Source of the DNA: an uncultured Pelagibacteraceae bacterium
GTDB taxonomy: Bacteria; Pseudomonadota; Alphaproteobacteria; Pelagibacterales; Pelagibacteraceae
Length of the DNA: 64,000 nucleotides
Direction: 5' to 3'
NCBI GenBank assembly: GCA_902540275.1
Contig: CACBMB010000002.1
Location: 1 to 64,000, forward strand
The notes below the pieces were generated by a model that saw only the letters and a program-made list of their open reading frames with translations, did no database searches and had not been told where the DNA came from. Numbering within the stretch: the first letter of the stretch is position 1; each line of letters starts with the position of its first letter. This document shows, in pieces, positions 1,015 to 64,000 of the stretch. Made by a program: the position numbers and the translations under genes.

Positions 1015-1018
1015 TTTA

Positions 1019-1110
1019 TGGCGGAAGAGGAGGGATTCGAACCCTCGGTACAAGTTTCCTCGCACGGTCATTTAGCAAACGACTGGTTTAAGCCTCTCAC
1101 CCACTCTTCC
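1019..1110 (-). tRNA. tRNA-Ser (anticodon GCT)
   Basis: Reverse complement GGAAGAGTGGGTGAGAGGC...GTCGTTTGCTAAATGAC...GGTTCGAATCCCTCCTCTTCCGCCA: acceptor stem, long variable arm, T-loop, encoded CCA. Confidence 0.95.
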
Positions 1111-1173
1111 AGGAAATTTGTCACTTCTGATTGTATTGAATAATCAATATTTATAAAGTAATTATTCATAATA

Positions 1174-2427
1174 ATGAGAAATAAGTACTCTTTATTTTCG
1201 CTGGTAAAAAATGCTTTTTCATATCATGAAAATTGGGAAAAAGCATGGAAAGATCCTGAGCCCAAAAAAGAATACGATGCAGTAATTGTTGGTGGTGGTG
1301 GTCATGGATTAGCTACAGCTTATTATTTAGCTAAAAAACATGATATGAAAAATATTGCAGTTGTAGAGAAAGGTTGGATAGGTGGAGGTAATACTGGCAG
1401 AAATACAACTATCATAAGATCTAATTATTTATGGGATGCTAGTGCTGGACTTTATAATCATGCTTTAAAAATTTGGGAAGGTTTGTCTCAAGAGCTTAAT
1501 TATAATGTAATGTTTAGTCAAAGAGGTGTAATGAATCTAGCACATAATTTACAAGATGTTAGAGATTTAAAAAGAAGAACGCATGCCAATAGATTAAATG
1601 GAATCGATGCGGTTTACCTAGATACAAAACAGGTAAAAAAATTTTGCCCAATAATAAATACATCACCTGATATTCGTTATCCTGTACTAGGTGGAACTCT
1701 TCAACGTAGGGCTGGTACTGCACGACATGATGCTGTTGCATGGGGTTATGCAAGAGGTGCGAACGAAATGGGTGTTGATATAATTCAAAATTGTGAGGTT
1801 AAAGGAATAAAAAGGAATCGTGACAGTGTTGAAGGAATTGAAACTACTAAAGGATTTATAAAAACAAATAAAATAGGAGTCGTCGCGGCTGGTCACTCAA
1901 GTGTAATAGCAAATATGGCGGGATTAAAATTACCTTTGGAAAGTAAACCGCTACAAGCTTTAGTGTCTGAACCAGTTAAACCAATTATTGATACTGTAGT
2001 TATGTCTAATGCTGTTCATGCTTATGTAAGTCAATCTGATAAAGGAGAGTTAGTTATAGGTGCTGGTACAGATGATTATGTATCTTATTCACAAAAAGGT
2101 AGTCATGATATTGTAGAAGGCACTCTAAATGCAATTTTGGAATTATATCCAATTTTTAGTAGAATGAGAATGCTGCGTCAATGGGGTGGAATAGTGGACA
2201 TATGTCCAGATGCAAGCCCAATAATTAGTAAAACTTCTATTAAAGGATTATATTTTAATTGTGGTTGGGGAACTGGAGGATTTAAAGCAACTCCTGGTTC
2301 GGGTGATTTGTTTGCTCACACTATTGCAAATGATGAACCACATAAACTAAATGCTGCATTCAATTTAAACAGATTCGTAAGTGGTGATCTAGTTGATGAA
2401 CACGGTGCAGCAGCTGTGGCACACTAA
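1174..2427 (+). CDS. soxB: Sarcosine oxidase beta subunit
   Basis: FAD-binding [22 protein letters not shown] fold; followed by soxD, soxA, soxG in canonical order. Confidence 0.93.
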
Positions 2428-2702
2428 TGTTTTTAATTAATTGTCCTTATTGTGGTGAAAGAGAACAAAGTGAATTTAAAGCAGGTGGTGAGGCCCATAT
2501 AATTAGACCTAAACAACCAACTGAATTAAGTGACGATCAATGGGCAGAATATCTCTTTATGAGAAAAAATATCAAAGGCATACAATTTGAAAGATGGGTA
2601 CACACACATGGTTGTAGAAAGTGGTTCAATGTAGTTCGAGACACATCAAATGATATAATTAAAGCAGTTTATAAAATGGGTGAAAAACCTCCAACCAAAT
2701 AA
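2427..2702 (+). CDS. soxD: Sarcosine oxidase delta subunit
   Basis: Small protein with CPYCGEREQSEF and HTHGCRKWFNVVRDT, typical of SoxD; overlaps the soxB stop. Confidence 0.93.
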   Translation: MFLINCPYCGEREQSEFKAGGEAHIIRPKQPTELSDDQWAEYLFMRKNIKGIQFERWVHTHGCRKWFNVVRDTSNDIIKAVYKMGEKPPTK

Positions 2703-2705
2703 ATA

Positions 2706-5700: not shown

Positions 5701-5711
5701 TAAATGCTTAA
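2706..5711 (+). CDS. soxA: Sarcosine oxidase alpha subunit
   Basis: 1001 aa; N-terminal GDTLASALLANDIHLVGRSFKYHRPRGIMTAGSEEPNA, pyridine nucleotide-disulfide oxidoreductase region, C-terminal GcvT-like domain (GTETMHLLRAEKGFIIVGQDTD). Confidence 0.95.
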   Translation: MTKNLRVRTSKFIDETYKISFKFDGKTYYGYKGDTLASALLANDIHLVGRSFKYHRPRGIMTAGSEEPNAIVQLHKNSSRTEPNVRATEVEIYEGLEASSQNCWPSVNFDIGGINNILSPLLPAGFYYKTFMWPASFWEKYEYFIRKSAGLGKSPTMPDPDIYEHKYIHCDVLVIGAGISGIIAAKTAAQNGFKTLLVDEKPYLGGSTIYQNSEHFKINNQISSSWLEKEINEIKKFKNLEIKTRTSIAAFHGYNFLLARENLTDHIPLEQRNNKTRQRLLKIRAKKVITATGSLERPLIFDNNDRPGILLSSAVEKYANLYGVACGEKNVLFTNNDSAYETAISLHQKGINIEAIIDNREEIDSKLIRETEKNNIKIYKGYTVVNTYGYKRINKISIMQLSKDGQKVVSSKISISCDCLGISGGWTPAVHLFTQSGGKLKFRDEDQVFIPNIYSSDQISIGSCNGDFTLDEILSNVPNSLREFLNIKKTDYENLEVRSSFNKTKRNIWLLPSDKVIGKTKPFVDYQNDATAKDIKLALREGFRSIEHVKRYTTTGMGTDQGKLGNMHALGIISETAGSKMGELGTTTFRPPYTPLTFGTIVGRNVGEYFDIFRKTPMHDWHVQNKAEFENVGQWKRAWYYPQNGESMHDAVQRESKAARDSAGILDASTLGKIDIQGTDASEFLNRVYTNAWSKLAIGKCRYGLMLNEDGMVYDDGVTTRLGENHYIMTTTTGGAATVLGKLEDYLQTEWPELDVYLTSVTDHYATISVCGPNSKKIVSQVIPDLNFSDESFPHMSFKNTKIDKIKCRVMRISFTGEHSYEINVQANYGKSVWEKCMEAGKEFNITPYGTETMHLLRAEKGFIIVGQDTDATMTPIDLQMDWIVSKKKYDFIGKRSLYRSDTIREDRKQLVGLLTENPDEVLEEGAQIVADVNKSPIEMLGHVTSSYYSPNLKKSIALGVVRGGKNMIGQKLIIPMENKKINVTVADPVFLDKENKRLNA

Positions 5712-6267
5712 TTACACAAATGTAATAACTGAAGAAAAATCTTACTCAGGTTTACAAATGAAAGAAGTTAAACCTGTTATGAAATTAATTATAAGAGGTA
5801 AAAAAAGAGAATTTTTATCTGCAATCGGAAAATCATTAAATTTATTATTGCCCACTGAAGCTAACACATCATCAAGAAGTGAAAAATTAACTGCTCTTTG
5901 GTTAAGCCCAGATGAATGGATGATTTACTCTAATGAAACTTTAAACTTTGAGAGTAATGACTATGAAACTGATAATTTACTTAATAAAAGTATTTCAAAA
6001 CCAAATTTAGGAGCTGTGACGGATGTTACTGATCAATTTGTTCTGATAAATATTAAAGGTGATAAAATTTTTAACTTATTTGAGACTGGTTCTCCTTTTA
6101 ATTTTAATCAATTTAGAAATAAAAAAGGTTCAGTTACTCAAACGATTCTCGCTAAAATTGATGTGATAATTCATAATCAAAACCAAAATGAGGTAAATCT
6201 TTTTGTAAGACGCTCGTTTTCGCAACATTTGTTCTCATGGATGAATGATAGTGCGTCAAGATTATAG
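5704..6267 (+). CDS. soxG: Sarcosine oxidase gamma subunit
   Basis: Position after soxA (8-nt overlap) and SoxG-like sequence ([35 protein letters not shown]). Confidence 0.88.
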
Positions 6268-6302
6268 TTTCATTTATATTTTCAAATAAGTTATCTAATA
6301 GA

Positions 6303-7070
6303 ATGAAAAAATTATTTCTTATAGCATTATTTGCTTTTTTACCCTTTTCCTTAAATGCAGAGTCTAATTTAGACAAGATTTTATCATCAGGAGTTTTAAA
6401 AGTTGGTACAACTGGTGATTGGGATCCAATGACCATGAAGGATCCAGCAACAAATAAATATAAGGGATTTGATATCGATGTAATGAATGAACTCGCAAAA
6501 GATATGGGAGTAAAGATAGAGTTTGTAGCAGCTGAATGGAAAACCATAGTTTCTGGGATTACATCTGAAAGATATGATATTTCAACTAGTGTAACAAAAA
6601 CTCCAAAAAGAGCTGAAGTAGCAGGTTTTACTGATACTTATTACAAATATGGAACTGTTCCATTAGTACTTAAGAAAAATTTGAAAAAATTTCCAACATG
6701 GGACTCGTTGAATAACTCAAACGTAACAATTGCTACTACTCTTGGTACATCACAAGAAGAAAAAGCAAAAGAATTTTTTCCAAAATCAAAATTAAATTCA
6801 GTTGAAGCGCCAGCTAGAGATTTTCAGGAAGTTTTAGCTGGTAGAGCGGATGGAAATATTACAAGTTCAACTGAAGCTAATAAATTAGTAATCAAATATC
6901 CACAACTAGCTATAGTTCCTGATGGAGAAAAAAATCCTGCTTTCTTAGCAATGATGGTTCCAAAAGGTGATAATAAATGGAACAGTTACGTTAATGATTG
7001 GATAAAAAAGAAAAAGTCATCAGGCTTCTTTACTGAGTTATTAGCTAAATATAATCTAAAAAGCTTATAA
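6303..7070 (+). CDS. ABC transporter periplasmic amino-acid-binding protein (SBP family 3)
   Basis: Signal peptide [38 protein letters not shown]...[23 protein letters not shown]. Confidence 0.88.
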
Positions 7071-8366: not shown

Positions 8367-9699
8367 TATTTAAAAAATAACCAATAAATATTAATACAGC
8401 AACTCCCATTGCCCAATTTGTAGCCATAATTGTATAGAAAATATCCTCATAATCTCCTCCTCTTATATTGATTACATACCATAAACTTAAAAAAGGGAAT
8501 GCGGTTAATCTTAATATACTTAAATATAAACTATAAAGGGGTTTCTTAACTGCTTGAAATACAGCTGTAGTAATAAAAAAAACTGGATAAATAGGTCCAA
8601 TTAATGCTGCAACTTTTAAATAAATAGCTCCACTCGCAATTGCTTTTTGATTGTCAGTAAATAATGAAACAAAAAATTCTGCACCAAAAAATATTATTAT
8701 TCCAGCAATAGCCATGAATGAAGAACCAAATAATAAAGCTTTAGTATATAATTCTCTAATTCTATTATAAGCTTTAGCTCCAAAATTTTGTCCTCCGATA
8801 GAAAGAACTGCTGTATTCAAACCAATAACTGGCAGTAAAAATACTTGCTCTACTCTTAATGCAGCACCATAACCGGCTGTAGCTAAGTCACCAAACTGTC
8901 CAATGAAATATAAAATATTAAATATTCCTACTCCAATAAATAACATACTAAACATAACTGGCACAGCTTGATTGGTTAATGATTTTAGATAATCGAATTT
9001 AGGAATAAAACATTGTGGTTTTAGATAATCTCTAATTTTACAATTATTAACTTTATATGCTAAATAGATTGTTCCAATTGATTGTGAAATTACTGTAGCT
9101 ATTGCAAGTCCAGCTATACCAAATCCAGGAATAAACCCATATCCCCAAATAAATAACGGATTTAAAAAAATGTTTAGAAAAAAACTAAATATCAAAACAT
9201 TTCTATAACTTCTTGTATCACCCTGAGCATTTAGAGTCCCATTCAGTGATATTTGTATCAATACAATAAAAGTTCCATAAAAAATAATATCTAGATATTC
9301 TCTTGTCAAAGCTATTCCAGCAGTATCAGATCCCATAACACCCAATAAATAATTTGAAGCATTCAAACCAAATAAAGTTACAAATATTGATACTGTTAAA
9401 GCAAAAATCAAAGACTGTGCAATATACATGGAAGCAACTTTCACTTTTTTTTCACCTATTGAGTTACCTATTAATGCATTTGTTGCGGCACCTAAGCCAA
9501 CACCGACAGCTATAATAGTAAAATAAATTGGAAATGATTTTGCTATAGCACCTATTGCTTCAGCAGAAATTCTACCAGCAAACCAAGTATCGACTAAATT
9601 ATAAAAAGTTTGAAATAACGAACCAACACTTGCGGGTATAGTGACTTTTCTAAGCAGTGTCCAAATTGGATCTTTAGTTAATTTTATTGATTTAGACAA
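8329..9699 (-). CDS. MATE family efflux transporter
   Basis: 12-TM-like protein; LVDTWFAGRISAEAIGAIAKSFPI and repeated MATE half-domains. Confidence 0.92.
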   Translation of the reverse strand: MSKSIKLTKDPIWTLLRKVTIPASVGSLFQTFYNLVDTWFAGRISAEAIGAIAKSFPIYFTIIAVGVGLGAATNALIGNSIGEKKVKVASMYIAQSLIFALTVSIFVTLFGLNASNYLLGVMGSDTAGIALTREYLDIIFYGTFIVLIQISLNGTLNAQGDTRSYRNVLIFSFFLNIFLNPLFIWGYGFIPGFGIAGLAIATVISQSIGTIYLAYKVNNCKIRDYLKPQCFIPKFDYLKSLTNQAVPVMFSMLFIGVGIFNILYFIGQFGDLATAGYGAALRVEQVFLLPVIGLNTAVLSIGGQNFGAKAYNRIRELYTKALLFGSSFMAIAGIIIFFGAEFFVSLFTDNQKAIASGAIYLKVAALIGPIYPVFFITTAVFQAVKKPLYSLYLSILRLTAFPFLSLWYVINIRGGDYEDIFYTIMATNWAMGVAVLIFIGYFLNNVFKQNKTLFSY

Positions 9700-9707
9700 A
9701 GCTATCC

Positions 9708-10616
9708 TTATTTAAATTCTTTTTGAAAAATATGTTTTTTTCCAGATTGTTTTGCTTTATATATCTGACTTTGTCTCATTCTAAAACGTGATTTTTGAGT
9801 TTTTGTTAATTTACCATGACAATTTGGGCAAGAAACTCCCTCTTCATACTTATTTGATTTTTTGTCTTTTGAGGATATAGGCATTCTACATCCACTACAC
9901 ATAGAATAAGAACCTAACCTTAATCCATGTTTTAGACTAATTCTATTATCAAAAACAAAACATTCCCCTTTCCACAAACTTTCTTGTTTCTTAATCTTAT
10001 TTAAATAGTTTAAAATTCCACCATTTAATTGGTAAATATTCTTAAATCCTTTCTTCTTCAAATAAACAGAAGTTTTTTCGCAACGTACTCCACCGGTACA
10101 AAACATTGCTACTGGTTTATTTTTTTTCAGTTTATTTAAATATTTAGGAAAATCTCTAAAATTAGTTACATTTGGATTTACTGATCTTTTAAAAGTTCCA
10201 ACCTTATATTCAAAAGGTTTTCTAGTATCAATTATGTGAGTTTCTTTATTTTTAATTAGTTTATTCCAATCTTTTGGTTCCAAATGAGATTTCATATTTC
10301 TCTCTTTAGGATTGATGGTTAAATTCATAGGTACAATTTCTTTTTTAATCTTAACTTTAGGTTTATGAAAAGGTTGAAATTTAGAATTAGACTCGTTGTT
10401 GCTATCAAATTGTTTAAATGAGAATAAAGATTTCAGTTTTTTGTTAGTTTTATCAATATCTTTGATACTACCAGAAATAGTGCCATTTAAACCTTCTTTA
10501 GCAATGATTATGGTTCCTCTAATATGATTTGAAATAAGGAACTTCTGTAAAAAATCTTTGTTTTTTTTTAATGATTTAATCTTTAAAAATTTATAAAAAC
10601 CAAAAACTTTAAACAT
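9708..10616 (-). CDS. trhO: tRNA uridine hydroxylase TrhO-like (UPF0176, rhodanese domain)
   Basis: IIDTRKPFEYKVGTF; rhodanese loop MFCTGGVRCEK; C-terminal CSGCR...CPNCHGKLT cysteines. Confidence 0.88.
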   Translation of the reverse strand: MFKVFGFYKFLKIKSLKKNKDFLQKFLISNHIRGTIIIAKEGLNGTISGSIKDIDKTNKKLKSLFSFKQFDSNNESNSKFQPFHKPKVKIKKEIVPMNLTINPKERNMKSHLEPKDWNKLIKNKETHIIDTRKPFEYKVGTFKRSVNPNVTNFRDFPKYLNKLKKNKPVAMFCTGGVRCEKTSVYLKKKGFKNIYQLNGGILNYLNKIKKQESLWKGECFVFDNRISLKHGLRLGSYSMCSGCRMPISSKDKKSNKYEEGVSCPNCHGKLTKTQKSRFRMRQSQIYKAKQSGKKHIFQKEFK

Positions 10617-11266
10617 TATAAAACTCTACAAATAGTCATTCCATCACCTAGTGGAATAATAATTTGTTCTACCCTTTTATCTTCAGACACAAATTTATTA
10701 AAATCTCTAATATTAATAGTAATTTTATCATTATTTTTATCATCAACTACTTCACCATGCCATAAAACGTTATCAACAATTATTAACCCACCTTTATTTA
10801 ATAGTTCTAATGATTTTTCATAATATTCTTTATAATTCATTTTATCTGCATCAATGAAGATCATATCAAATTTATTATTTTTTAATTCTTTTAAACTTTC
10901 AAGAGCGGGTTTAATTATTGTTTGAATTTTATGTTCTTGATTGGCTTTTTTAAAAAAATTTAACGCTATTTTGTTCGTCTCTTCACTTTTATCAAGAGCA
11001 ATAAGTTTTCCGTCATCAGGTAAAGCAAGTGAGATTGAGAGAGCACTAAGTCCTGTGAAAGTTCCAATTTCAAGAACATTTTTAATATTTGAAACTTTTA
11101 TAATTAAATGAAGAAAATGACATTGAGTAGGATCAATCTGCATTCTTTTGATGTCCCCTAAAGTTTTATTATAATTGATTATCTCTTGTTGTATTGGATG
11201 TAAATTTAAACCAAAATTATTAATATAATTTTGTAACTTTTCTGTAATATTAAGGTTTACACCCAT
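10616..11266 (-). CDS. O-methyltransferase (caffeoyl-CoA type, SAM-dependent)
   Basis: VLEIGTFTGLSALSISLALPDDGKLIALDKSEE; FDMIFIDADKMNYKEYYEKSLELLNKGGLIIVDNVLWHGEVVD. Confidence 0.9.
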   Translation of the reverse strand: MGVNLNITEKLQNYINNFGLNLHPIQQEIINYNKTLGDIKRMQIDPTQCHFLHLIIKVSNIKNVLEIGTFTGLSALSISLALPDDGKLIALDKSEETNKIALNFFKKANQEHKIQTIIKPALESLKELKNNKFDMIFIDADKMNYKEYYEKSLELLNKGGLIIVDNVLWHGEVVDDKNNDKITINIRDFNKFVSEDKRVEQIIIPLGDGMTICRVL

Positions 11267-11267
11267 T

Positions 11268-12758
11268 CTATTGAAGTTTTTTCTTTAATATCTCATTTAT
11301 AAGTTGAGGATTAGCTTTACCACCAGAAGCTTTCATTGCTTGACCAACAAAGAAACCAAATAATTTTTCCTTACCTTGCTTGTACTCGATTGCTTTTTCT
11401 CTATTGTCAGTAATTATTTTATCAATTAAAGCCTCTATTGCTTTAGGATCACTTTGTTGTTTCAATCCTTTCTCTTCAACAATTTTTTGAGGATCTTTAT
11501 CTCCATCCAACATTAATTCAAATACAGTCTTTGCTATTTTCCCCGAAATTGTTCCATTCTTTATCAGGTTAACAAGTATAGCCAAATTCTTTGCACTTAC
11601 TGGACTTTGAGAAATTTCTAGATTTTTATTATTTAAAACCGCAAATAACTCACCTGTAATCCAGTTAACTGCTAATTTCATATCTTTATTCTTACCCATC
11701 TTGGCCACAACCTCTTCGAAATATTTTGCTGTATCGATATCCGAGACTAAAATTGTTGCCTCATATGGGGACAACTTAAATTCATCAATAAATCTTTTCT
11801 TTTTATCATCAGGTAATTCTGGAATATCATTTTTAAGATCATTAATAAAATCCTCTGAAACTTCTAAGGGTAATAAATCAGGATCTGGAAAATATCTATA
11901 ATCGTGCGCATCTTCTTTTGATCTCATTGATCTTGTTTCATTTTTTTTAGTGTCAAATAGTCTTGTTTCTTGATCTATTGATTTACCCTCTTCGATTAAA
12001 TCAACCTGTCTATTTGCTTCATATTCAATAGCCATTTGCATAAACTTAATAGAATTAACATTTTTGATTTCACATCTTGTACCAAATTCTTTTGAACCTT
12101 TTGATCTTACAGAGACATTAACATCTGCTCTTAATGATCCTTCTTGCATATTTCCATCACATGTACCTAAATATCGCATAATAGATCTTAATTTTTTAAT
12201 ATATTCACTTACTTCATCTGGAGATCTAAGATCTGGTTTACTTACAATTTCCATTAGAGCTACACCCGATCTATTCAAATCAACAAAAGTATTTTGTGGA
12301 TCAAGATCATGAATACTTTTTCCCGCATCTTGTTCTAAATGTAACCTTTCTATACCAATTTCTTTTTGTCCATTAGGCATATCTAAAATTACTTTGCCCT
12401 CACCTACTATGGGGTCTTTAAATTGTGAAATCTGATATCCCTGAGGTAAATCAGCGTAAAAATAATTTTTTCTGTCAAAAACAGATCGTTTGTTGATTTT
12501 TGCATTAAGGCCAATACCAGTTTTTATAGCTTGTTTAACACAAAATTCATTAATTACTGGTAACATTCCTGGGAATGCAGCATCAACTAAACTTACTTGT
12601 GTATTTGGTTCTGCTCCAAATTTAGTAGCTGAAGTAGAAAATAGTTTTGACTCAGATAATATTTGTGCATGAACTTCTAGCCCAATCACAACTTCATATT
12701 GATTATCTTTACGATTAATTAGATATTCTAAATTTTTTTTACTCACTTTATCCACCAA
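11268..12758 (-). CDS. gatB: Aspartyl/glutamyl-tRNA amidotransferase subunit B
   Basis: [34 protein letters not shown]; downstream of gatC and gatA. Confidence 0.97.
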
Positions 12759-14200
12759 TCATTTATTTGATTTTTAAAACTTATCTTTTCTTCCATTGCA
12801 AACGCGATATTTAGTATATTTTGTTCATCAAAAGCTTTGCCGATAATTTGCAAACCCAATGGATAGCCTTTTGAGTCATGTCCTGCAGGAATAGATATAG
12901 CTGGTAGGCCTGCTAAATTGACCGGGACTGTAAATATATCATTAAGATACATTGAAACTGGATCATTTGTTTTTTCACCTATTTTAAATGCTGAACTAGG
13001 TGTTGAAGGAGTTAGAATTGCATCAACTTTCTTATAAGCTTCATCAAAATCATTTTTAATAAGTTTTCTCACTTTTTGAGCTTTTAGATAATACGCATCA
13101 TAATAACCAGATGATAAAACATAAGTTCCAATCATAATTCTTCTTTGAACTTCTGCCCCAAACCCCTCAGATCTAGTTTTCTCATACATTTCAATTAAGT
13201 TTTCACCTTTAGCTCTAAATCCATATTTTACACCATCATATCTTGCTAAATTAGAAGATGCTTCAGCGGGAGCAACTATATAATAAGTTGGCAAAGCATA
13301 ACTTGTATGTGGAAGAGAAATATCGATCGTTTCTGCACCACAATCTTTTACATATTGAATTCCTTTTTGCCAAAGATTCTCAATCTCTTTTGGCATTCCA
13401 TCTACTCTATATTCTTTTGGTATTCCGATTTTCTTTCCCTTAATATTAATACTAAGTTCTTTGCTGTACTCATTTCTTTTAAAATCTATTGATGTAGAGT
13501 CTTTTGGATCATAAGAGCTAATTACTTCTTGTAATAAAGCACAATCTTTTACATTTTGAGCCATTGGTCCTGCTTGATCTAATGAAGAGGCAAAAGCAAC
13601 AATTCCATAACGTGAACAACTTCCATATGTAGGTTTTAATCCTACTGTTCCCGTAAAAGAAGCTGGTTGTCTAATTGATCCACCTGTATCAGTGCCAATT
13701 GTTATTGGAGTTAATTTTCCAGCAACTGCAGATGCAGATCCACCTGATGAGCCACCTGGTACTAAATCTTTATCAATAGGATTTTGTACATTTCCAAAAA
13801 AACTAGTTTCATTTGATGATCCCATTGCAAATTCATCACAGTTTAATTTACCTAAAAGTATTGCTCCTTCATTCCAAATATTTTTAGTTACTGTTGACTC
13901 ATAAGTGGGTACAAAATTATTTAAGATTTTACTACCAGCAGTTGTTTTAACATTTTTTGTACAAAATAAATCTTTAACTGCCATCGGAATACCAGGTAAT
14001 TTTAAATTGAAATTAGGTTTTTGGTCAAATTTTTTTGCTTTATCCAGGGCTGATGAAAAATCATCAGTAATATAAGCGTTTAGCTCTCCAGATTTTTCAG
14101 ATCTTTCAATAAACCCTTTAGTCACATCTGTTGAGGAAAGTTTTTTATTTTTGATATTTTCAACTAATTCTGTCAAAGATTGTTTAGTTATATCTGACAT
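12743..14200 (-). CDS. gatA: Glutamyl-tRNA amidotransferase subunit A
   Basis: Amidase signature [36 protein letters not shown]. Confidence 0.97.
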
Positions 14201-14487
14201 TATTCTATTACCTTTGGTACAACAAAATAATCTTTATTATCTTGCGGAGAATTTTTAATAATTTGTTCTCTTATATTTTCACTTTTAACTTCATCAGATC
14301 TCAATTTTAACGTTGTTTCAGCGACAGAAGTTAAAGGCTCAACATTATCTGTTTTTAATTCATTAAGTTTTTCAATAAAATCAAATATTGAATTTAAATC
14401 ACCAGCTAATTTTTTGGCTCTTTGTTCATCAACTGAAATCCTTGATAATTTAGATATATGTTTTATTGTTTTAAGATCTATACTCAT
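14200..14487 (-). CDS. gatC: Glutamyl-tRNA amidotransferase subunit C
   Basis: [12 protein letters not shown]...[25 protein letters not shown]; directly upstream of gatA. Confidence 0.95.
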
Positions 14488-14537
14488 ATGCTATTTAAAT
14501 ATGACGCAAACTATCACTTAAGTTTAAAATATACAAT

Positions 14538-14993
14538 ATGATCACTTTGGAAGAATTTAAAAAAAAACACTCAGATAAGTGTAGATTGATAGGTTTAGAC
14601 CTTGGTTCTAAAAGAATCGGGGTATCTATTTGTGACGAAAAACAATTAATTGCCACTCCTTTGAAAACAATAAATAGAAATTCACTGGATGAATTAATTA
14701 ATGAACTCAAAGAAATTATAAATGATAATAATATTAAAGGTATGATTATTGGAAATCCTCTAAATATGGATGGTTCGTCAGGTAGATCATCTCAATCTGT
14801 AAGAGATACTTCTCAAAACATTGAAAAAAATATTAATATTCCAGTTTGTTTATGGGATGAAAGATTATCAACAGTTGGGGCCTTTAATTTATCTAGTCAA
14901 TTAGATATCAATGTTAGTAAAAGAGAAAAGAAAATTGACGAAAATGCAGCTACTTTCATATTACAAGGAGCAATAGATTTTTTAAATAATTAA
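14538..14993 (+). CDS. ruvX: Putative pre-16S rRNA nuclease / Holliday junction resolvase YqgF
   Basis: LIGLDLGSKRIGVSICDEKQLIATPL; GNPLNMDGSSG; WDERLSTVGA. Confidence 0.93.
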   Translation: MITLEEFKKKHSDKCRLIGLDLGSKRIGVSICDEKQLIATPLKTINRNSLDELINELKEIINDNNIKGMIIGNPLNMDGSSGRSSQSVRDTSQNIEKNINIPVCLWDERLSTVGAFNLSSQLDINVSKREKKIDENAATFILQGAIDFLNN

Positions 14994-15035
14994 TACTTGC
15001 TATTCTATACATTTATAGCTATAGAGTTGGTTTTA

Positions 15036-15977
15036 ATGGCAATTAAATCTGATATAGCTGTTAAAATTTCTCAAAAACATTTGTTAGGTATACAAGATTT
15101 ATCAATTAATGATGTTAATTTGATATTGGATGAAGCTCATAAATTTATAAAAGTTAATCAAAGTAAAAATAAAAAGATAGATGTTTTAAGAGGTAAAACC
15201 CAAATTAATTTATTTTTTGAGCCCTCTACAAGAACTCAAAGTTCATTTGAATTAGCCGGTAAAAGACTTGGTGCAGATGTAATGTCTATGAACATCAGTA
15301 ACTCAGCAATTAAAAAAGGTGAAACTTTAATTGATACTGCAATGACTTTAAATGCAATGCATCCTGATATCATTGTAATTAGACATCAAGATTCAGGCGC
15401 ATGCAACTTACTTTCACAAAAAGTTAATTGTGCGGTTTTGAATGCTGGTGATGGTAGAAGAGAACATCCAACTCAAGCTTTATTAGACGCTTTAACAATC
15501 ATAACTCGTAAAAAAAAAATTGAAGGATTAAAAATTGCTATTTGTGGAGACATACTTCATTCAAGAGTAGCAAGGTCTAATATTTATTTATTAAATATGT
15601 TAGGAGCAGAAGTAAATATAATTGCTCCAACAAATCTGATGCCTAAGGAAATTGAAAAATTTGGGGTTAACACATTTACTGATATGAGAAAAGGTTTGAA
15701 AGATTGTGATATTGTAATGATGTTACGATTACAAAATGAAAGAATGACAAGTTCGTATCTTTCATCCAACAGAGAGTATTATGAATATTATGGATTAACA
15801 CCAGATAAATTAGAATATGCTAAATCTGACGCCTTAATCATGCATCCTGGACCAATGAATAGAGGTATAGAAATAGATACAGTTTTAGCTGATGATATTA
15901 ATAAAAGTGTGATTAAGGAACAAGTTGAACTTGGAGTGGCAGTAAGAATGGCTTGTTTAAAAATATTTTGTACTTAG
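15036..15977 (+). CDS. pyrB: Aspartate carbamoyltransferase catalytic subunit
   Basis: [25 protein letters not shown] at 15036 preferred over TTG at 14997 of the ORF track; [17 protein letters not shown]. Confidence 0.95.
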
Positions 15978-17264
15978 ATGAAAAAACAATATTTTATAAA
16001 TGCAAATATAATTGACCCTCATAATTCAATAAACGAAAACGGGGGTTTAATTATAAATGAAGATGGCAAAATTGAAGCTGTAGGAAAAAAAGTAAATATT
16101 AATAACTTACCAAGTAGAGAAAAGCCAATTGATTTAAGAGGTAAATATATATTCCCAGGGTTAGTTGATATGAGAGTTTTTGTTGGTGAACCTGGATTTG
16201 AATACAAAGAAAATTTTAGAACTTTAAGTAATGCGGCTTTATCAGGAGGAGTTACTTCCGTAGTTACAATGCCTAATACAGATCCAATAATTGACAATGT
16301 TTCAATAGTTGATTTTTTGAAAAGAAGAGGAAGGGATAAGTCAAAAATAAATATTTTTCCATGTGCTTCACTTACAAAAAATACTGAGGGAACTAATATG
16401 ACAGAATTTGGCCTTTTACAGAGCAAAGGAATAATTGCTTTCACTGATGGTGTAAAAACAATTCAAAATCCAAGATTAATGTCTAGAATAATGAACTCTG
16501 CAAAAGATGTAGGTTGTTTAATTATGCAACACGCTGAGGACAGTGAGTTAGCAAAAAACGGAATGATTAATTCTGGAATAATTGCCTCCAAACTGGGATT
16601 ATCAGGTATTCCAGAAATAGCAGAAAGAATTTTAATTGAAAGAGATTTAACGTTATTAGAAAAAGTTAAATGTAGATATCATATATCACAATTATCATCC
16701 CAGAAATCAGTTGAAGTAATAAAATATAGAAAAGAAATAGTTAAATTTACATCTGGAGTTTCTATAAACAACTTATCATTGAATGAAAATGATATTGGAG
16801 ATTTTAGAACTTTCTTAAAACTATCTCCCCCATTAAGAAGAGAGGAAGATAGATTGGCTTTAGTTCAAGGATTAAAAGATGAATTAATTGATGTAATTGT
16901 CTCTGATCACAAACCTGAGGATGAAGAATCTAAAAGATTAACATTTTCACAAGCAGCTACAGGTGCTTCAGGGATAGAAACACTACTTTCTTTAAGTTTG
17001 GAATTATATCACAATGGATCTCTAAAACTTGAAACAGTAATTAAAGCACTCACCTCAAATCCAGCAAAAATATTAAAAATAGATAAAGGTAATCTTACTA
17101 TTGGAAATGATGCTGACTTTTGTATAGTGGATATTGATAAACCATGGATTGTAAAAAAAGAAAAACTAGTATCAAAATCAAAAAATACTTCAATTGAAGA
17201 TAAAAAACTTCAAGGAAAAGTTACTAATACGTTTGTAAAAGGAAAAGAATTATTTAAGCTGTAG
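15978..17264 (+). CDS. Dihydroorotase-like protein, probably non-catalytic (PyrC'/PyrX type)
   Basis: Dihydroorotase family (VTSVVTMPNTDPIIDN; LIMQHAEDSELA; TSNPAKIL) directly after pyrB, but HxH replaced (VDMRVFVGEPGFEYKEN) and other metal/substrate positions altered. Confidence 0.85.
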   Translation: MKKQYFINANIIDPHNSINENGGLIINEDGKIEAVGKKVNINNLPSREKPIDLRGKYIFPGLVDMRVFVGEPGFEYKENFRTLSNAALSGGVTSVVTMPNTDPIIDNVSIVDFLKRRGRDKSKINIFPCASLTKNTEGTNMTEFGLLQSKGIIAFTDGVKTIQNPRLMSRIMNSAKDVGCLIMQHAEDSELAKNGMINSGIIASKLGLSGIPEIAERILIERDLTLLEKVKCRYHISQLSSQKSVEVIKYRKEIVKFTSGVSINNLSLNENDIGDFRTFLKLSPPLRREEDRLALVQGLKDELIDVIVSDHKPEDEESKRLTFSQAATGASGIETLLSLSLELYHNGSLKLETVIKALTSNPAKILKIDKGNLTIGNDADFCIVDIDKPWIVKKEKLVSKSKNTSIEDKKLQGKVTNTFVKGKELFKL

Positions 17265-20478: not shown

Positions 20479-22614
20479 CTAATCAGATAAAAATTTATTT
20501 ACTTCAGAAAAATGCACTGCAAAATTCATCCCTTCACTTGTATCTTTATGTAAACCTTGGGTATTTACCCCTACCACTTTATCTTTATAAAACAATGGAC
20601 CACCTGAATTACCTGGATTTATAGCAGCATCAGTTTGAATAAATAATACGTCTGGATTACCAGTTGCGCTGTAAACACTACTTTCTTTTCTTATTGCACT
20701 AATCCAACCTTTTGTTAAAGAGAATTTTCTTCCTTTTGGATGACCTAAAGCTTCAACCATTTCACCTTGTTTTAATTGACCTTCAAAAAATTTTACTGGT
20801 TTACCAGTTGTATTAGTTTTTAAAAGAGCAAGGTCTCTTTTTAAATCTTTTTTGATAACGACGGCTGAAGACCTCTTTTTAAATTTATCTGTGACAGAAA
20901 TTGACATTGCATTTTCTATAACATGATAATTTGTGATGATTTCATCTTTTGAAATAAAAAAACCTGAACCTAAACCTTTTTCAGTCTTAACTATAACAAC
21001 ACTATCAAACCTAATATCTTTTTCCTCATAATTTGATGATGATTTATTAGTTAATGATGCAATTTTTTTGTTTGAACCTTGTTTTGTTCCACCTAATAAT
21101 TTTTCCCACCAAGATAGCTCTTCTTCTACAGAAAAGTTTAAGCTAGCATATAATTCTTTTTTATCAAATAACTCTCTAAATTCGCTTTCATTATCAAACA
21201 AATTTAATAATTCATTTAAAGAAATGTTTTTTATTTTTTGATTCTGCCAATTAGATACTTGATCTGGAGAAGAATACTTGTTTATTAAGTTTTCATATTT
21301 CTTATCCTGAGGATCAATATTATAAGCAACTTTAAAATTTTTGTTGGATTTAATTGAAATATTTTTTTCAATTAATTTCTTATTTTTAAATTGAACAATT
21401 TGATAAATGGCTTTTTTTTCAGCATTAATATTTTGCACTAAATAACTGTAAGTTCTTAACATTTCTTTTTCTAAGTAATCTGGCGTATTTGAATAACTAC
21501 TTATAAGATTATTTAATCTGTTTTGAAGTTTAGCACCCTCATTTTGCCATTTTTCTTGTAATGCAATGCCACCCCATTGAGTAATTAAACCACAACTTAT
21601 ACATTGAGACATTTGAAAACCTCTTTCAGCTTCAGCTTGTGCTCTTTGTAACTCTCTCTCAGTTCTTCTCATTTCTGCTTGAAGTCTATTAAATTCCGGA
21701 TTCGGAACACTCCTTGTACCTGCTACCATCTGAGAAGTTAAATTTTCCTCTAAATTTACTGTTGAGAATGAATCAAAATCTTTTGGAATAACAATTAACA
21801 AATTTGAATTAGTTGCTAACAAATTTTTTACTATATCTAAACTAAATTCCTTATTTGTTTCATAATCAATATTATCAGAAGGATTAATATTAGGTAATAA
21901 TTCTTTTTTAACTATTTGTAAATCAGCTAAAATAACTTTTAATTCATGATTAACATTATCTTTCTGTTTAATATCAAGTTTTTTTTTATTATTATTTTGT
22001 TTTGCAACTTCTTTTTTAATTTTATCTAATTCTTTTTTCTCTTTTAATTTTGCGAGCCTTTCAGCTTTTTTACGCTCTTGTTCAGCTTTTATTGCTAATC
22101 TTTTTTGTTTAAGTTCTTTCTTTCTTTTTTCAATTTTTGCAAGCCTTTCAGCTTTTTTACGCTCTTGTTCAGCTTTTCTTGCTAATCTTTTTTGTTTAAG
22201 TTCTTTTTTTCTTTTTTCAATTTTTGCAAGTCTTTCAGCTTTTTTTAATTCAATTTCTTTTTGTCTTTCTAATTTCTTTTTTTTTTGTGTATTTGCAATT
22301 TCTAGTTTTTTCTTTTCTTCAAGTTCTTGATTATTGTTATTTTCAACCAAAACATTTTCATTGTTTAATATTTTATCTTTATTTTTTCTAAACTCATCTA
22401 GTTTGGAAATTCTTTCAGATGCTTTTATCTCAATAATATGCGTAAATTCTTTTTGATCTATTTTGATATCGCTTGAATCACTACAATTATCTAGATCAAA
22501 TAAAGGTAATATTAGTCCGTCTTTATCAAGACAGTAATTTTCTTGTGAATATGATATATTTGAAACTAGACAAAAAAGTGTAGCAAAAAACAAATATTTA
22601 ATTTTATTTGTCAT
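20479..22614 (-). CDS. Secreted trypsin-like (S1C/HtrA-type) serine protease with N-terminal charged coiled coil, no PDZ domain seen
   Basis: Signal peptide; long K/E/R-rich coiled coil; catalytic contexts ITNYHVIENA, KRDLALLKT, INPGNSGGPLF. Confidence 0.85.
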   Translation of the reverse strand: MTNKIKYLFFATLFCLVSNISYSQENYCLDKDGLILPLFDLDNCSDSSDIKIDQKEFTHIIEIKASERISKLDEFRKNKDKILNNENVLVENNNNQELEEKKKLEIANTQKKKKLERQKEIELKKAERLAKIEKRKKELKQKRLARKAEQERKKAERLAKIEKRKKELKQKRLAIKAEQERKKAERLAKLKEKKELDKIKKEVAKQNNNKKKLDIKQKDNVNHELKVILADLQIVKKELLPNINPSDNIDYETNKEFSLDIVKNLLATNSNLLIVIPKDFDSFSTVNLEENLTSQMVAGTRSVPNPEFNRLQAEMRRTERELQRAQAEAERGFQMSQCISCGLITQWGGIALQEKWQNEGAKLQNRLNNLISSYSNTPDYLEKEMLRTYSYLVQNINAEKKAIYQIVQFKNKKLIEKNISIKSNKNFKVAYNIDPQDKKYENLINKYSSPDQVSNWQNQKIKNISLNELLNLFDNESEFRELFDKKELYASLNFSVEEELSWWEKLLGGTKQGSNKKIASLTNKSSSNYEEKDIRFDSVVIVKTEKGLGSGFFISKDEIITNYHVIENAMSISVTDKFKKRSSAVVIKKDLKRDLALLKTNTTGKPVKFFEGQLKQGEMVEALGHPKGRKFSLTKGWISAIRKESSVYSATGNPDVLFIQTDAAINPGNSGGPLFYKDKVVGVNTQGLHKDTSEGMNFAVHFSEVNKFLSD
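22052..22245. repeat. 87-bp tandem repeat (two full copies plus start of a third) inside the protease coiled coil
   Basis: Units start at 22052, 22139 and 22226 (spacing 87 each); encode KKAERLAKIEKRKKELKQKRLA(R/I)KAEQER; first two copies differ at about 3 positions. Confidence 0.92.
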
Positions 22615-59245: not shown

Positions 59246-59321
59246 GCCCTTGTAGCTCAGCTGGTAGAGCAATTGATTTGTAATCAATAGGTCCGCGGTT
59301 CGAATCCGTGCGGGGGCACCA
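59246..59321 (+). tRNA. tRNA-Thr (anticodon TGT), intact copy at the island edge
   Basis: GCCCTTGTAGCTCAGCTGGTAGAGCAATTGATTTGTAATCAATAGGTCCGCGGTTCGAATCCGTGCGGGGGCACCA. Confidence 0.96.
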
Positions 59322-59372
59322 TCACTCAATAAAATCAACGTTAATTATTTTTAAAAAGTTAAATTTCTATCC

Positions 59373-59427
59373 TGACTGTGCTCATAGTGTGCTTTGATTG
59401 TGTATAGAGTGTGTATGGATTGTGTAT
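59373..59427. repeat. Array of five 11-bp direct repeats, consensus nnAnTGTGywn
   Basis: TGTG at 59377, 59388, 59399, 59410, 59421: tgactgtgctc/atagtgtgctt/tgattgtgtat/agagtgtgtat/ggattgtgtat. Confidence 0.8.
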
Positions 59428-59442
59428 CAAACAAGTAGTCGT

Positions 59443-60042
59443 TTAATCCTTTTTTTTTATAACTTTAAAACCTTTGTTTGCATAAAACCAAATAATTGGA
59501 AAAGAAATTATCATTAAAATAATTTTAGAAACAAACATTGTGTCTATAATCAAATAAATTGCACCGATTGCTAATATGGATAAAAATATTCTATTTTTAG
59601 TTTTATTTTCTATTTCTTTTTCTTTAATTTTTTTAAATGAGATTTTTAGCGCAAAAAACATATTTAATAACATCCAAACTATTGAAAAAGGAGCTCCCAT
59701 TGGTATCCAAGGTGGAAATACTATTAGAGCAAAACCCATCCAAGCTTTTGGAAATAAATCTGCACAAAGATGAATTGCAATACCTATTAAAAATCCAATA
59801 TAGGCATAATCTAAAATTTCTTTAGAAAAGTCTTTATTTGAAAAAAATCTTCCAAAAATCTTATTTGAAATTTTAGAATATCCTTCCTTAGTTAAAAATT
59901 TATATAAGAAAAAAGGAACAATTATCCCGTGAGTTAATATTGATCTATGTCCTAAAAATACTAGAAGGTGCAAATCAAAATCAGGAAATTCTAAACCAGC
60001 TAATAAAGAAACGTACAAAACAACTAAATACGTTTTTTTCAT
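59443..60042 (-). CDS. YdjM/DUF457-like membrane protein (putative metal-dependent hydrolase)
   Basis: EFPDFDLHLLVFLGHRSILTHGIIVPFFLY...GIAIHLCADLFPKAWMG with several hydrophobic helices. Confidence 0.65.
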   Translation of the reverse strand: MKKTYLVVLYVSLLAGLEFPDFDLHLLVFLGHRSILTHGIIVPFFLYKFLTKEGYSKISNKIFGRFFSNKDFSKEILDYAYIGFLIGIAIHLCADLFPKAWMGFALIVFPPWIPMGAPFSIVWMLLNMFFALKISFKKIKEKEIENKTKNRIFLSILAIGAIYLIIDTMFVSKIILMIISFPIIWFYANKGFKVIKKKD

Positions 60043-60381
60043 TTAATCAAAATATTGATAACCCCAAGCTTGTTTCATTCTAACAAGAAATCTGACCTCT
60101 TTATCTTTTAATTCACCATCAGATAAGGCAACTCTTTTAACAAAGTCTTTTGCTTGAAATTTTGAATCATCTTTTGTGATATTTCCCAAATAAAAATCTT
60201 GAGCAACATCAATATCACCTGAAAATTTTTTATTTATTTCATCTGATGCATTATGTACGTTAAAATCAACTTTAATCTCTTTTGCAATCTTTAGTATTTC
60301 AGCAGTCTCATCTTTTCCTAAACCATGATCAGCTAATGCCATACATACACATAAATTCAAAGAATTGATCTTATCCGACAT
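60043..60381 (-). CDS. Small TerB-like helical protein
   Basis: ALADHGLGKDETAEILKIAKEI and VALSDGELKDKEVRFLVRMKQAWG resemble TerB-like DGxL..E motifs. Confidence 0.5.
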   Translation of the reverse strand: MSDKINSLNLCVCMALADHGLGKDETAEILKIAKEIKVDFNVHNASDEINKKFSGDIDVAQDFYLGNITKDDSKFQAKDFVKRVALSDGELKDKEVRFLVRMKQAWGYQYFD

Positions 60382-60934
60382 GTTTAAACCCTTTTCTTAT
60401 ACATTCCTTTATGCTGTTAGTATAAAACTCACCACTTTTTATATTAATATGAACCTTGTCATAAAATTTATCAAAAGGGAAAAAGAATAATTTTTTCCCT
60501 CTTTTATTTATGTTGCATTTAATCATTGGAAAATTTTTATCTAATTTAATGTTTCTATGTTGGATATTTAATTTTTTTGCAACATCTTTAGCTCTATCTG
60601 AAAGTTTTGCAGTTGTCACAAATACACCTTTAGGAAAATTGTTCTTATTATAAATATAATAAAGGATAGTGCCCGCTAATTGCATCAAATGTTTTTCGTG
60701 AATAGTTTTTCTTTTTGACCAATTTTTAGCTTGAATAATAAGAACTTGTTTTTTCTTCGTACAAATTAAATCTCTGCCTAAATCACTTTTTCCTTTTAAA
60801 ATACCATAAGGCTCAACTCTCCAACCATTCTTTTCATAAAGATATCTTATCTGCCTCTCGTAGAATTCCCCTATTCCCTCCTTTGAATGAACTTTCTTTT
60901 TATATTCATCAAATTTTTTCTGCAGATTTTTCAT
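60371..60934 (-). CDS. Mrr-like PD-(D/E)XK restriction endonuclease family protein
   Basis: GEFYERQIRYLYEKNGWRVEPYGILKGKSDLGRDLICTKKKQVLIIQAKNW: GxD ... QxK arrangement of Mrr-type nucleases. Confidence 0.7.
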   Translation of the reverse strand: MKNLQKKFDEYKKKVHSKEGIGEFYERQIRYLYEKNGWRVEPYGILKGKSDLGRDLICTKKKQVLIIQAKNWSKRKTIHEKHLMQLAGTILYYIYNKNNFPKGVFVTTAKLSDRAKDVAKKLNIQHRNIKLDKNFPMIKCNINKRGKKLFFFPFDKFYDKVHINIKSGEFYTNSIKECIRKGFKHVG

Positions 60935-61713
60935 TTCAAATTCTTAATTACATCTTCTTTTTTTTTACCAGCTCTTACTTCATCAAAATACACTACCTGT
61001 ATAGGTATATCTTTCTTATGTATCTGCTTATAAATATTCACTTTAGATCTATAAATTCCAAATTTAAAATATGTTTTCACACCTTTAGATTTTGTTGCAC
61101 CTTTAAAATCAAGAACTAATTTATTATTTGCCCATAATTTAAAATAACCATCATCTTTGTGTGTCCAATTAACATTTACCAATATATCATTCCATTTTCC
61201 TAACAACTCTTCTTTAGAAAAAATTTGAGTGCTTCCTACAGTATATTCTGGAACATAGTTTTCGATCCAATATCCACCACGTTTATTTTTAAACATCCAA
61301 ATTACATGTTTTTTTTCTTGGTGAAACTGACCAAGTATAACTGATACAGGATCAACATTTACAAAATCTTCAGGCATATAAATTGACCAAGCATACCATC
61401 TATCTCCTTTGCTAACTCTAAGCCTTGCACTCAACTCATGTCTTTCACGATTTGTTTTACAATCATTCCAGTTACCATCTTTATCTTTACCACAATCACC
61501 AGCTCTTAATTCAAACCTTATAGATTTTTCACCTGCACGTACTGGATGACCATCTGATTTATTAACTACTTGCATTCCATATTTTTTATAATAATTCCCT
61601 GTAAGGCTTTTTTTAAATTTACTACCTGAAGCTACATCCTTAGGCAAACTTACTGCGTATACAGTATTGACCCATAATAAACCCAGAACTACGATCCCTA
61701 AAAGTTTTTGCAT
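60931..61713 (-). CDS. Secreted polysaccharide lyase-like protein (heparin lyase I-like fold)
   Basis: Signal peptide; HPVRAGEKSIRFELRAGDCG...RERHELSARLRVSKGDRWYAWSIYMPEDF...ILGQFHQEK...YFKFGIYR...VVYFDEVRAGK. Confidence 0.7.
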   Translation of the reverse strand: MQKLLGIVVLGLLWVNTVYAVSLPKDVASGSKFKKSLTGNYYKKYGMQVVNKSDGHPVRAGEKSIRFELRAGDCGKDKDGNWNDCKTNRERHELSARLRVSKGDRWYAWSIYMPEDFVNVDPVSVILGQFHQEKKHVIWMFKNKRGGYWIENYVPEYTVGSTQIFSKEELLGKWNDILVNVNWTHKDDGYFKLWANNKLVLDFKGATKSKGVKTYFKFGIYRSKVNIYKQIHKKDIPIQVVYFDEVRAGKKKEDVIKNLK

Positions 61714-62496
61714 TTAACTCTTTTTAGAAACAGTAAATTTCACTTTCTTATCATTATGGTCTCGCCCAGTTCCTGTTACACCACCATTCTTAATCCACTT
61801 TAACGTACCTGCGGCTCCCATGTTATTTGAACATGCTATTTGCCATGTTCCTTTTCCCCCTTCTTGCAAAGAATAGGTGCCATCACAAGTTCCATCATTA
61901 TTTGGTAACGGTATATTTAAAGTTCCTCTATAATCTTTTTCATCAAACTTGACTGTTCCTGCAATTAAATCTTGATAACCCTCCCAACTTAAAGCAATAG
62001 ATCTCTCACCCTTTAACTCATATTTTTTTACAGTTTTTTTGGGTTCTTTTTTTTCTGTTTTCTTTTTTTTTGTTGTTAAATTATTTTTATAAAAACCTAG
62101 CTCAGTTAATTTCGCATATATCTCAGCATCAGACCAATTTGAATTAATTGTAGATGATTTACCTTTTCCTTCATTAATACCATTTTTCCATTTAATAGTT
62201 CTTCTCAATGCAAATTTTTTACATTTTTTTCCAGTAAGCTTTTCACAATGTTTTATGTCTTCATAAGCATTTCCAGATTTACAAACACCCTCTCCACAAG
62301 TCCAATAGGTAGCGTCTGTTCCATCTAGTGTCACATAAAAATCAGAAGGTTTTTTGGTATATTTACCACGAATATATTTTATAAAATAATCAGCAATACT
62401 TTTTGTCAATTGTAATTGACCTTCTCCATAAGGACCCGAATTTGCTTTTCCAGTTAAAATTAAACATAGAAAAATGACACCTAGGAATTTCTTCAT
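61714..62496 (-). CDS. Secreted protein of unknown function
   Basis: ATG at 62496 gives signal peptide MKKFLGVIFLCLILTGKANSGPYG; cysteine-containing N-terminal domain and C-terminal WQIACSNNMGAAGTLKW region. Confidence 0.65.
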   Translation of the reverse strand: MKKFLGVIFLCLILTGKANSGPYGEGQLQLTKSIADYFIKYIRGKYTKKPSDFYVTLDGTDATYWTCGEGVCKSGNAYEDIKHCEKLTGKKCKKFALRRTIKWKNGINEGKGKSSTINSNWSDAEIYAKLTELGFYKNNLTTKKKKTEKKEPKKTVKKYELKGERSIALSWEGYQDLIAGTVKFDEKDYRGTLNIPLPNNDGTCDGTYSLQEGGKGTWQIACSNNMGAAGTLKWIKNGGVTGTGRDHNDKKVKFTVSKKS

Positions 62497-62509
62497 TAAA
62501 AATATTACC

Positions 62510-62561
62510 ATTGTTGCTATATTGTTGCCAAGCTGAAAATATTTTAAAATTATTGTTGCTA
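62510..62561. repeat. Three ATTGTTGCYA direct repeats near the distal island end
   Basis: ATTGTTGCTA (62510-62519), ATTGTTGCCA (62521-62530), ATTGTTGCTA (62552-62561). Confidence 0.75.
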
Positions 62562-62582
62562 ACAAATGTTTATTTAAACTTT

Positions 62583-62635
62583 AGCAATTGATTTGTAATC
62601 AATAGGTCCGCGGTTCGAATCCGTGCGGGGCACCA
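62583..62635 (+). pseudogene. 3' fragment of tRNA-Thr (attachment-site duplication)
   Basis: AGCAATTGATTTGTAATCAATAGGTCCGCGGTTCGAATCCGTGCGGGG identical to 59268-59315, then CACCA with one G deleted; lacks the 5' half of the tRNA. Confidence 0.93.
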
Positions 62636-64000
62636 CTAAAAACTGTTACTTACAATTATATTCGCCCCATAATCAGGTATATCACTGAAAAAATTATATT
62701 TGGATGAAATTTTTAAATCGAAGTTTTTTGTTTTTTTTGTAAATTCTAAATTAGTATTACTACTTTCATCTAGTTCTAACGCAATTTTAGTTTCATCAAT
62801 TGGAACATATCCTAAAGATAAAAAAAACTCATTATAGTAACCTTCCCCGCTTGCACCAAATCTCTCAAAGTTTGTCACTATTGACCAACCAGTGACTGTA
62901 GTTATATCTAATCCATATCCAATTCTATAATTATGTTTTGATTTATTATTTGCTTTATATTTATAAACAGTACTTTGACTGTTTAAATAATAAAATTCTG
63001 CATTAGAAGATGGACTTAAATCTCCCACATACTCTAATCTCCCATGATGGATTGTTTTTTTTTCTTTCTCCTTTTTTTCTTTATCAAACAGTACTCCAAT
63101 TGTTGCCATTGCATTCTTAATATTTTGTTCTTTGTAGATTAATGCATCACTTAAACTGTTACCTAAAGTAGTTTTTTCTCTGAAAGCTTTAAGTTTTGTA
63201 TATCCAAAGTCTAATTTGATACCAGGATTTAGATTTATTTCTCTATCATGTAATCTTTTTCCAAAATTAACTGACCCATAAATTTGTTGTCCTTCTCTAT
63301 TTCCTTTAAGAGTATTACCATAAGTAACTCTTGTATGGTCAGTATCTAATAAACTTAACCCAATAATCCCATCTGTAAAAAAATCATCTTCTCCAATTTT
63401 TGTTCCATAAAGAGCTAAACTATAAGAATCTGTATCTAGTCCTGTGCCTTGGCCACCAATATCAATATTATCATTTCCATATTGGAAAACATATCCATAC
63501 ATTACATCTCTATCTTCATCTTTAATCCTATCGGCACCAATTGAAATACCATATGTGTGAATATCTCTAGATGAAGTATCTATTGCATGTCTTTTACCCA
63601 GACTTACTCTACCCTCACTCCATTGAAACCAATCATCACTATTATAAGTTCTATCTTTTTCCTTTTTAAAAGTTTCTAAAGTGCTAACTAATTTTGCAAT
63701 TTTTTGATTTGTAAAATCAATTTCAGCATTCAAGTTTGTAAGATTATCTTTATTTTTATGTCTTCTTAACCATTCAGTTCTATGAAACACTGGAAGTATA
63801 TTATTCCTAATAATTCTTTTAGATAACTCCACGTTAGCTTCAATGATAGCTTTCACATCACCATTAGTTGATGCATCAAGACAAGTTATAGTTCCAGCAC
63901 AATCAAGATCATATTCATAAATTACATTATCATCTGAACTGCTTCCGTCATCTCCAGTAACATATAGTTTCGTAAAATTAGATGAAAATTTAAATCCTCG
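62636..64000 (-). CDS. Autotransporter-like outer-membrane protein with beta-barrel C-terminus; 5' part outside the window
   Basis: C-terminal barrel with alternating aromatic strands ending in ...NIIVSNSF; frame stays open to window end (GFKFSSNFTKLYVTGDDGSSSDDNVIYEYDLDCAGTITCLDASTNGDV), so the GTG at 63856 is not the real start. Confidence 0.8.
   Translation of the reverse strand, partial: RGFKFSSNFTKLYVTGDDGSSSDDNVIYEYDLDCAGTITCLDASTNGDVKAIIEANVELSKRIIRNNILPVFHRTEWLRRHKNKDNLTNLNAEIDFTNQKIAKLVSTLETFKKEKDRTYNSDDWFQWSEGRVSLGKRHAIDTSSRDIHTYGISIGADRIKDEDRDVMYGYVFQYGNDNIDIGGQGTGLDTDSYSLALYGTKIGEDDFFTDGIIGLSLLDTDHTRVTYGNTLKGNREGQQIYGSVNFGKRLHDREINLNPGIKLDFGYTKLKAFREKTTLGNSLSDALIYKEQNIKNAMATIGVLFDKEKKEKEKKTIHHGRLEYVGDLSPSSNAEFYYLNSQSTVYKYKANNKSKHNYRIGYGLDITTVTGWSIVTNFERFGASGEGYYNEFFLSLGYVPIDETKIALELDESSNTNLEFTKKTKNFDLKISSKYNFFSDIPDYGANIIVSNSF

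Follow-up and report, generated by a model that had tools for sequence, protein, structure and literature searches.

A phased array beside a tRNA-Thr gene

In the window analysed here (the whole stretch of 64,000 nucleotides), a tRNA-Thr(TGT) gene is followed by an AT-rich spacer, a short repeat array, five antisense genes and a partial copy of the same tRNA gene (Table 1). The array, read as TGACTGTGCTCATAGTGTGCTTTGATTGTGTATAGAGTGTGTATGGATTGTGTATCAA, had been singled out in a preliminary description of this DNA as five TGTG words exactly 11 bp apart with an invariant A two bases upstream, and both features are seen again on re-reading the letters: TGTG starts at 59377, 59388, 59399, 59410 and 59421, and the A precedes all five units. 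The first unit lies 55 bp past the CCA end of tRNA-Thr, close to the roughly 50 bp given before, and the array is non-coding as claimed, falling between the tRNA gene and the stop codon of an antisense gene at 59443. When pitches of 7–30 bp were scanned, this was the sole non-homopolymer tetramer array with at least five copies in the 64 kb; the chance-frequency check proposed earlier gave the pattern once in the window and not at all in 100 dinucleotide shuffles of it. At this locus, an Rfam search returned only the tRNAs. Elsewhere in the window, at 22030-22286, an 87-bp unit is repeated in tandem about three times with 86–93% matches.

Table 1 Features of the tRNA-Thr locus and its cassette (window coordinates).
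Feature	Position	Strand	Source or assignment
tRNA-Thr(TGT), integration target	59246..59321	+	ARAGORN
Attachment repeat: tRNA-Thr 3' half from the anticodon stem-loop	59268-59321	+	Repeat copies
AT-rich spacer between core and array, TCACTCAATAAAATCAACGTTAATT...AAATTTCTATCCTGA, conserved among cassettes of the same class	59322..59372	+	Cassette comparison
Array of five 11-bp units, TGTGCTCATAG/TGTGCTTTGAT/TGTGTATAGAG/TGTGTATGGAT/TGTGTATCAAA	59377..59431	+	Proposed integrase arm-type sites, tRNA-side arm
Conserved box, the last part of the tRNA-side end module (consensus ATCAAGTRGTCGTT; CAAACAAGTAGTCGTT in the window)	59428..59443	+	Cassette comparison
Cargo gene, YdjM-like membrane protein, below the Pfam cut-off	59443..60042	-	Pfam
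Cargo gene, TerB-like	60043..60381	-	Domain match
Cargo gene, Mrr-type restriction endonuclease domain	60371..60934	-	Domain match
Cargo gene, polysaccharide lyase	60931..61713	-	Domain match
First cargo gene, whose in-frame ATG (62496) is 96 bp away from the distal core	61714..62496	-	ORF
Promoter-like TGGTAATATTTTTA (putative promoter), directly before the ATG, adjoining and overlapping the distal arm	62497..62511	-	Sequence
Distal arm, two units TGTTGCTATAT/TGTTGCCAAGC at 62512 and 62523	62511..62533	+	11-bp pitch units
Distal attachment repeat: partial tRNA-Thr copy covering the 3' half, 98% identical and lacking one G	62583..62635	+	Repeat search

The array travels with an integrase-less cassette

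Searching relatives, we found at least four TGTG words at 11-bp pitch in 17 of 300 congeneric genomes, all belonging to one homologous family, and a single match in the same genomes for the pattern written backwards. All 15 arrays clear of contig ends lie 55–56 bp after the CCA of tRNA-Thr in the same orientation, 11 of them behind a full gene and four behind a partial copy; thus the prospect raised in the preliminary description, that such arrays might turn up at an equal rate at random chromosomal sites, does not hold. In L034, the array stands 55 bp after a second, partial tRNA copy because another cassette has been inserted ahead of it, and it is therefore part of the cassette and not of the chromosome; it travels with its cassette in L210 as well. 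A query made of the tRNA 3' half and the array was also searched against 50,697 phage records, where the best 40 of 254 matching records align with the tRNA part only and cover at most 35% of the query, none of them spanning the array.

The cassette in the window occupies 59322-62582, flanked by tRNA-Thr and by a second copy of the 3' half of that gene, and the core direct repeats at its two ends (59268-59321 and 62583-62635) are 98% identical. Two things go beyond the preliminary description: the cassette is without an integrase, and a second array stands at its other end. Its five genes include neither an integrase nor a replication gene of its own, so it does not qualify as a phage satellite, and there is no initiator gene beside the repeats in this cassette. 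Across the whole genome from which the window comes, only one gene with a Phage_integrase domain was found, and it is of Xer-like size. Directly past the partial tRNA-Thr copy, an autotransporter beta-domain gene ends antisense (62636-64000).

A catalogue of tRNA-Thr cassettes

Partial 3' copies of tRNA-Thr recur downstream of the gene in many of 61 related genomes (search with tRNA-Thr and its flank), and dozens of related SAR11-type genomes carry tRNA-Thr cassettes, some in tandem. From 85 loci, 50 of which have at least two tRNA-Thr copies, we catalogued 147 such copies and 62 closed cassettes, which measure 0.7–11 kb and mostly 1–2 kb. Their plan runs from a tRNA 3' copy through a spacer, two to five arm units, a box, antisense cargo, and a start codon with promoter-like stretch and two arm units, to the next tRNA 3' copy, with the cargo diverging past the conserved box. 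A cassette usually holds one to three cargo genes, as against five in the window cassette, and cargo ORFs of at least 80 aa are almost all antisense to the tRNA (143 of 145). Among their products are pilin-like proteins, restriction and HNH nucleases, candidate defence proteins and polysaccharide lyases, the last a family accounting for 4 of 101 cassette proteins. A profile search of six-frame ORFs from the 62 closed cassettes (133 kb) found no integrase.

In 40 of 61 cassettes, 92–97 bp separate the distal core from the first start codon. This codon is preceded by a promoter-like TGrTAAAGTTTTTT stretch, a candidate promoter by its letters, which adjoins the distal arm. Such a recurring distance, and distal units set right beside a promoter-like stretch, could be taken to mean that the repeats are operators that control expression of the cargo and play no part in recombination. 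We regard this as very improbable, given that the tRNA-side array lies beyond the stop codon that ends the last cargo gene, where an operator would make little sense, and that arms and promoters are expected to overlap in any case, as they do for intS of KplE1 (PMC2951348).

Two loci depart from the common layout. In another family of the order, L063 (reverse complement, 414-2404) has five tRNA-Thr 3' copies at intervals of only 0.4–0.5 kb, with roughly one small gene to an interval, and no TGTG arrays were seen there. In L045 (reverse complement, 481-6931), a tRNA-Thr 5' half is followed by a 6.3-kb stretch and then by a full tRNA-Thr, which reverses the usual layout.

Arm units match between the two ends of a cassette

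Among the 62 closed cassettes, the second array at the distal end comprises two units, again at 11-bp pitch. Of the 127 non-redundant tRNA-side ends, about 58 have 11 bp as their best lag, as do 22 of 62 distal ends, compared for both with 8 of 125 control stretches. Many tRNA-side ends show no recognisable array. The letters of the units differ between cassettes yet are shared by the two ends of the same cassette: the mean best 18-mer identity from end to end is 14.55, compared with 12.85 ± 0.16 when ends are permuted, and none of 20,000 permutations reached as high (p < 5e-5). Stretches outside the arms gave no significant end-to-end match, but these controls mostly test composition, and the strength of the result therefore rests on the arm letters that the ends share. 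Words found at both ends include TGCGGAC in L197, TGTGTCG in L198, L201, L210 and L223, TGTTACC in L040, L225, L232 and L234, and further TGTGTTA and AAGTGAA.

This result argues against explaining the array solely as a tandem duplication that arose by chance and was inherited at the locus through common descent. The TGTGTAT class is indeed one homologous family, as a duplication relic would be; other classes, however, keep the pitch and the place with different letters, and the letters at the two ends change together, which leaves this the least credible of the explanations we weighed.

In the window cassette itself (L031), the arm classes differ (TGTGTAT on the tRNA side, TGTTGC at the distal end), and the end-to-end match ranks in the lowest 6%. 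The mismatch suggests a recombinant origin, and this copy may no longer be excisable as a unit. Within the cassette, a search for relics of internal ends, which two fused cassettes would be expected to leave, returned only short AT-rich matches.

Related integrases are flanked by repeats of the same kind

Of 398 genomes of the order, 18 encode related tyrosine integrases, which lie at other tRNA genes. An element-specific word is repeated between the attachment site and int at 16 of the 20 integrase loci, 30–48 bp before the gene, at a pitch of 11 bp (12 bp in two); where a direct repeat could be resolved, the same word recurs at the distal end in 12 of 14 elements, against 1.3 expected. The N-terminal part of these integrases gave no match to a Pfam arm-binding family, and the Int_N match in the L166 integrase covers the middle part of the protein.

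When 399 genomes were searched with a profile, tRNA-Thr proved to have a cognate integrase in one of them (genome G272, L250/L252; E = 1.1e-102), encoded by a gene that is cut by a contig end. It lies antisense to the tRNA about 106 bp from the core, in the place that cargo takes in the cassettes, and its arms are two TGTTGC units and not TGTGTAT. Among 209 cassette ends, the distal arm of the window cassette is the best match to the L252 arm (15 of 18 positions; 0 of 2,000 shuffles). No integrase with TGTGTAT-type arms was found among the integrase loci of the order.

Two elements at tRNA-Met, in L124 and L166, pack an integrase, an AAA/primase-like protein and a terminase small-subunit-like protein into about 5.5 kb. 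The L124 element (1170-6700, 5.5 kb; integrase, AAA_25 and terminase-like genes) carries TGTGATCA-type units at both ends, six on one side and two on the opposite side. In L166 (genome G511, 9692-16900), the integrase/AAA_25/terminase-small-subunit-like element stands in tandem with an integrase-less two-gene cassette, and the pair shares a common attachment repeat and identical TGACACA arms, which points circumstantially to mobilisation of the cassette by the element beside it. A third arm pair follows, and behind it lies a cargo gene whose product is 47% identical over 140 aa to that of the first cargo gene in the window (61714..62496). Five genomes also carry phage-type integrases of about 425–460 aa next to tRNA-Leu(TAG) (L051, 4365-5764, and L111-L114), which are likely prophages or prophage remains; they are not obvious helpers because of that location and because they are without TGTG arrays.

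These loci bear on two further explanations. Equal spacing near one helical turn is what iterons for replication or transfer of a plasmid-like intermediate would show, and the integrase elements do encode a primase/AAA-like protein. No initiator, primase or relaxase was found, however, in the window cassette or in the commonest cargo families; arrays occupy both ends and keep an almost constant distance to the recombination core, and integrase genes are flanked by the same kind of repeats. Thus, of the protein-binding sites suggested in the preliminary description, a replication or transfer origin is unsupported, as no initiator or relaxase is encoded and both ends carry arrays, and we hold it to be highly unlikely, whereas integrase arm-type sites are favoured.

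Phased direct repeats within attachment arms are common targets of excisionases (recombination directionality factors) and of host accessory proteins, and the array might accordingly be bound by a protein of this kind instead of the integrase; the second conserved box in the end module would suit the same reading. Excisionase sites, however, are usually confined to one arm and here both arms have repeats; a host factor would see a single motif, whereas the units are cassette-specific and matched at both ends; and most int genes have element-specific repeat words beside them. We therefore consider this explanation unlikely.

A proposed route of integration in trans

We propose, with a probability of roughly 85%, that the array comprises the tRNA-side arm-type sites at which a tyrosine integrase, supplied in trans, would bind an integrase-less cassette at tRNA-Thr(TGT). 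This reading of the sequence is favoured because the array is linked to tRNA-Thr, travels with the cassette and matches the other end across cassettes, and because integrase-encoding elements have the same layout. Integrase binding, its supply in trans and the mobility of present-day cassettes are what we infer from these observations.

The recombination core would span the 3' half of the tRNA from its anticodon stem-loop onwards (59268-59321), with 62511-62635 as the matching end. The N-terminal domain of the integrase would bind the arm units while the enzyme also binds the core within the tRNA, and integrase held on the core and on arms at both sides would then join a circular cassette to tRNA-Thr. 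As each cassette would bring its own tRNA 3' half, the tRNA would stay intact and older cassettes would be pushed downstream. Since the cassettes are without an integrase, the enzyme would have to come in trans, most simply from a rare autonomous relative of the G272 or G511 kind, or from a phage satellite.

Comparison with known systems

Arm-type sites and CIMEs are already known kinds. As with the arm sites of lambda Int and KplE1 IntS, short repeats flank the core on both sides in a tRNA-targeting element, and the cassette arm overlaps the promoter-like stretch of the adjacent gene much as the arm of KplE1 attL overlaps the promoter of adjacent intS (PMC2951348). Here, by contrast, the gene beside the arm is usually cargo and not int, tRNA-side arrays have up to five units, and the unit letters vary among neighbouring cassettes at one tRNA.

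CIMEs, which are decayed ICEs or IMEs, keep attL and attR, have no integration genes and accrete in tandem at one target gene (PMC5704250). The tRNA-Thr cassettes resemble them in their tandem arrangement and in having both attachment ends without an integrase gene, as found in the 62 closed cassettes. Unlike CIMEs, they are very small (most 1–2 kb), and their cargo genes point one way and stand at a nearly constant distance from the end, so that the format looks maintained and not decayed; the relatives that do bear an integrase, moreover, look satellite-like (AAA_25, Terminase_2) and not conjugative. The integrase, AAA/primase-like and terminase small-subunit-like genes of L124 and L166 recall PICMI satellites (PMC10803314), whereas the tRNA-Thr cassettes have none of the three. 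AlpA and Fis, which mark PICMIs (PMC10803314), were not seen in a non-exhaustive look at the integrase elements.

The ssrA islands of Dehalococcoides, with a serine recombinase and a 20-bp repeat, also form a series bounded by the repeats of one RNA gene with an integration module in only some members, but the available portion of that report describes no arm arrays (PMC3146451). Tycheposons (4–200 kb, with a recombinase) and the additive island of Methylopumilus, with its repeated tRNA 3' ends, likewise place cargo elements at tRNA genes, and again no arm arrays are given in the portion of the source at hand (PMC10872708). In the accessible parts of the openly licensed literature, we found no description of this SAR11 cassette format, its locus or its arrays.

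Implications for SAR11-type bacteria

A broader reading, which we offer tentatively and at slightly less than even odds, is that SAR11-type bacteria practise an integron-like form of gene capture without a resident integrase, for which tRNA-Thr is the port of entry. Small cassettes ending in arm sites, and with a promoter built into one end, would be stacked one way and mobilised in trans by the integrases of rare satellite-like elements, the arm letters setting the helper for each cassette.

The genomes of SAR11 bacteria are streamlined, and their acquisition of accessory genes is poorly explained. A format that needs only two short ends would move defence, pilin and polysaccharide-lyase genes at almost no DNA cost, and the matched arm letters make the pairing of integrase and cassette testable. 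The cassette ends also constitute a simple sequence signature by which such cassettes can be spotted in metagenomes.
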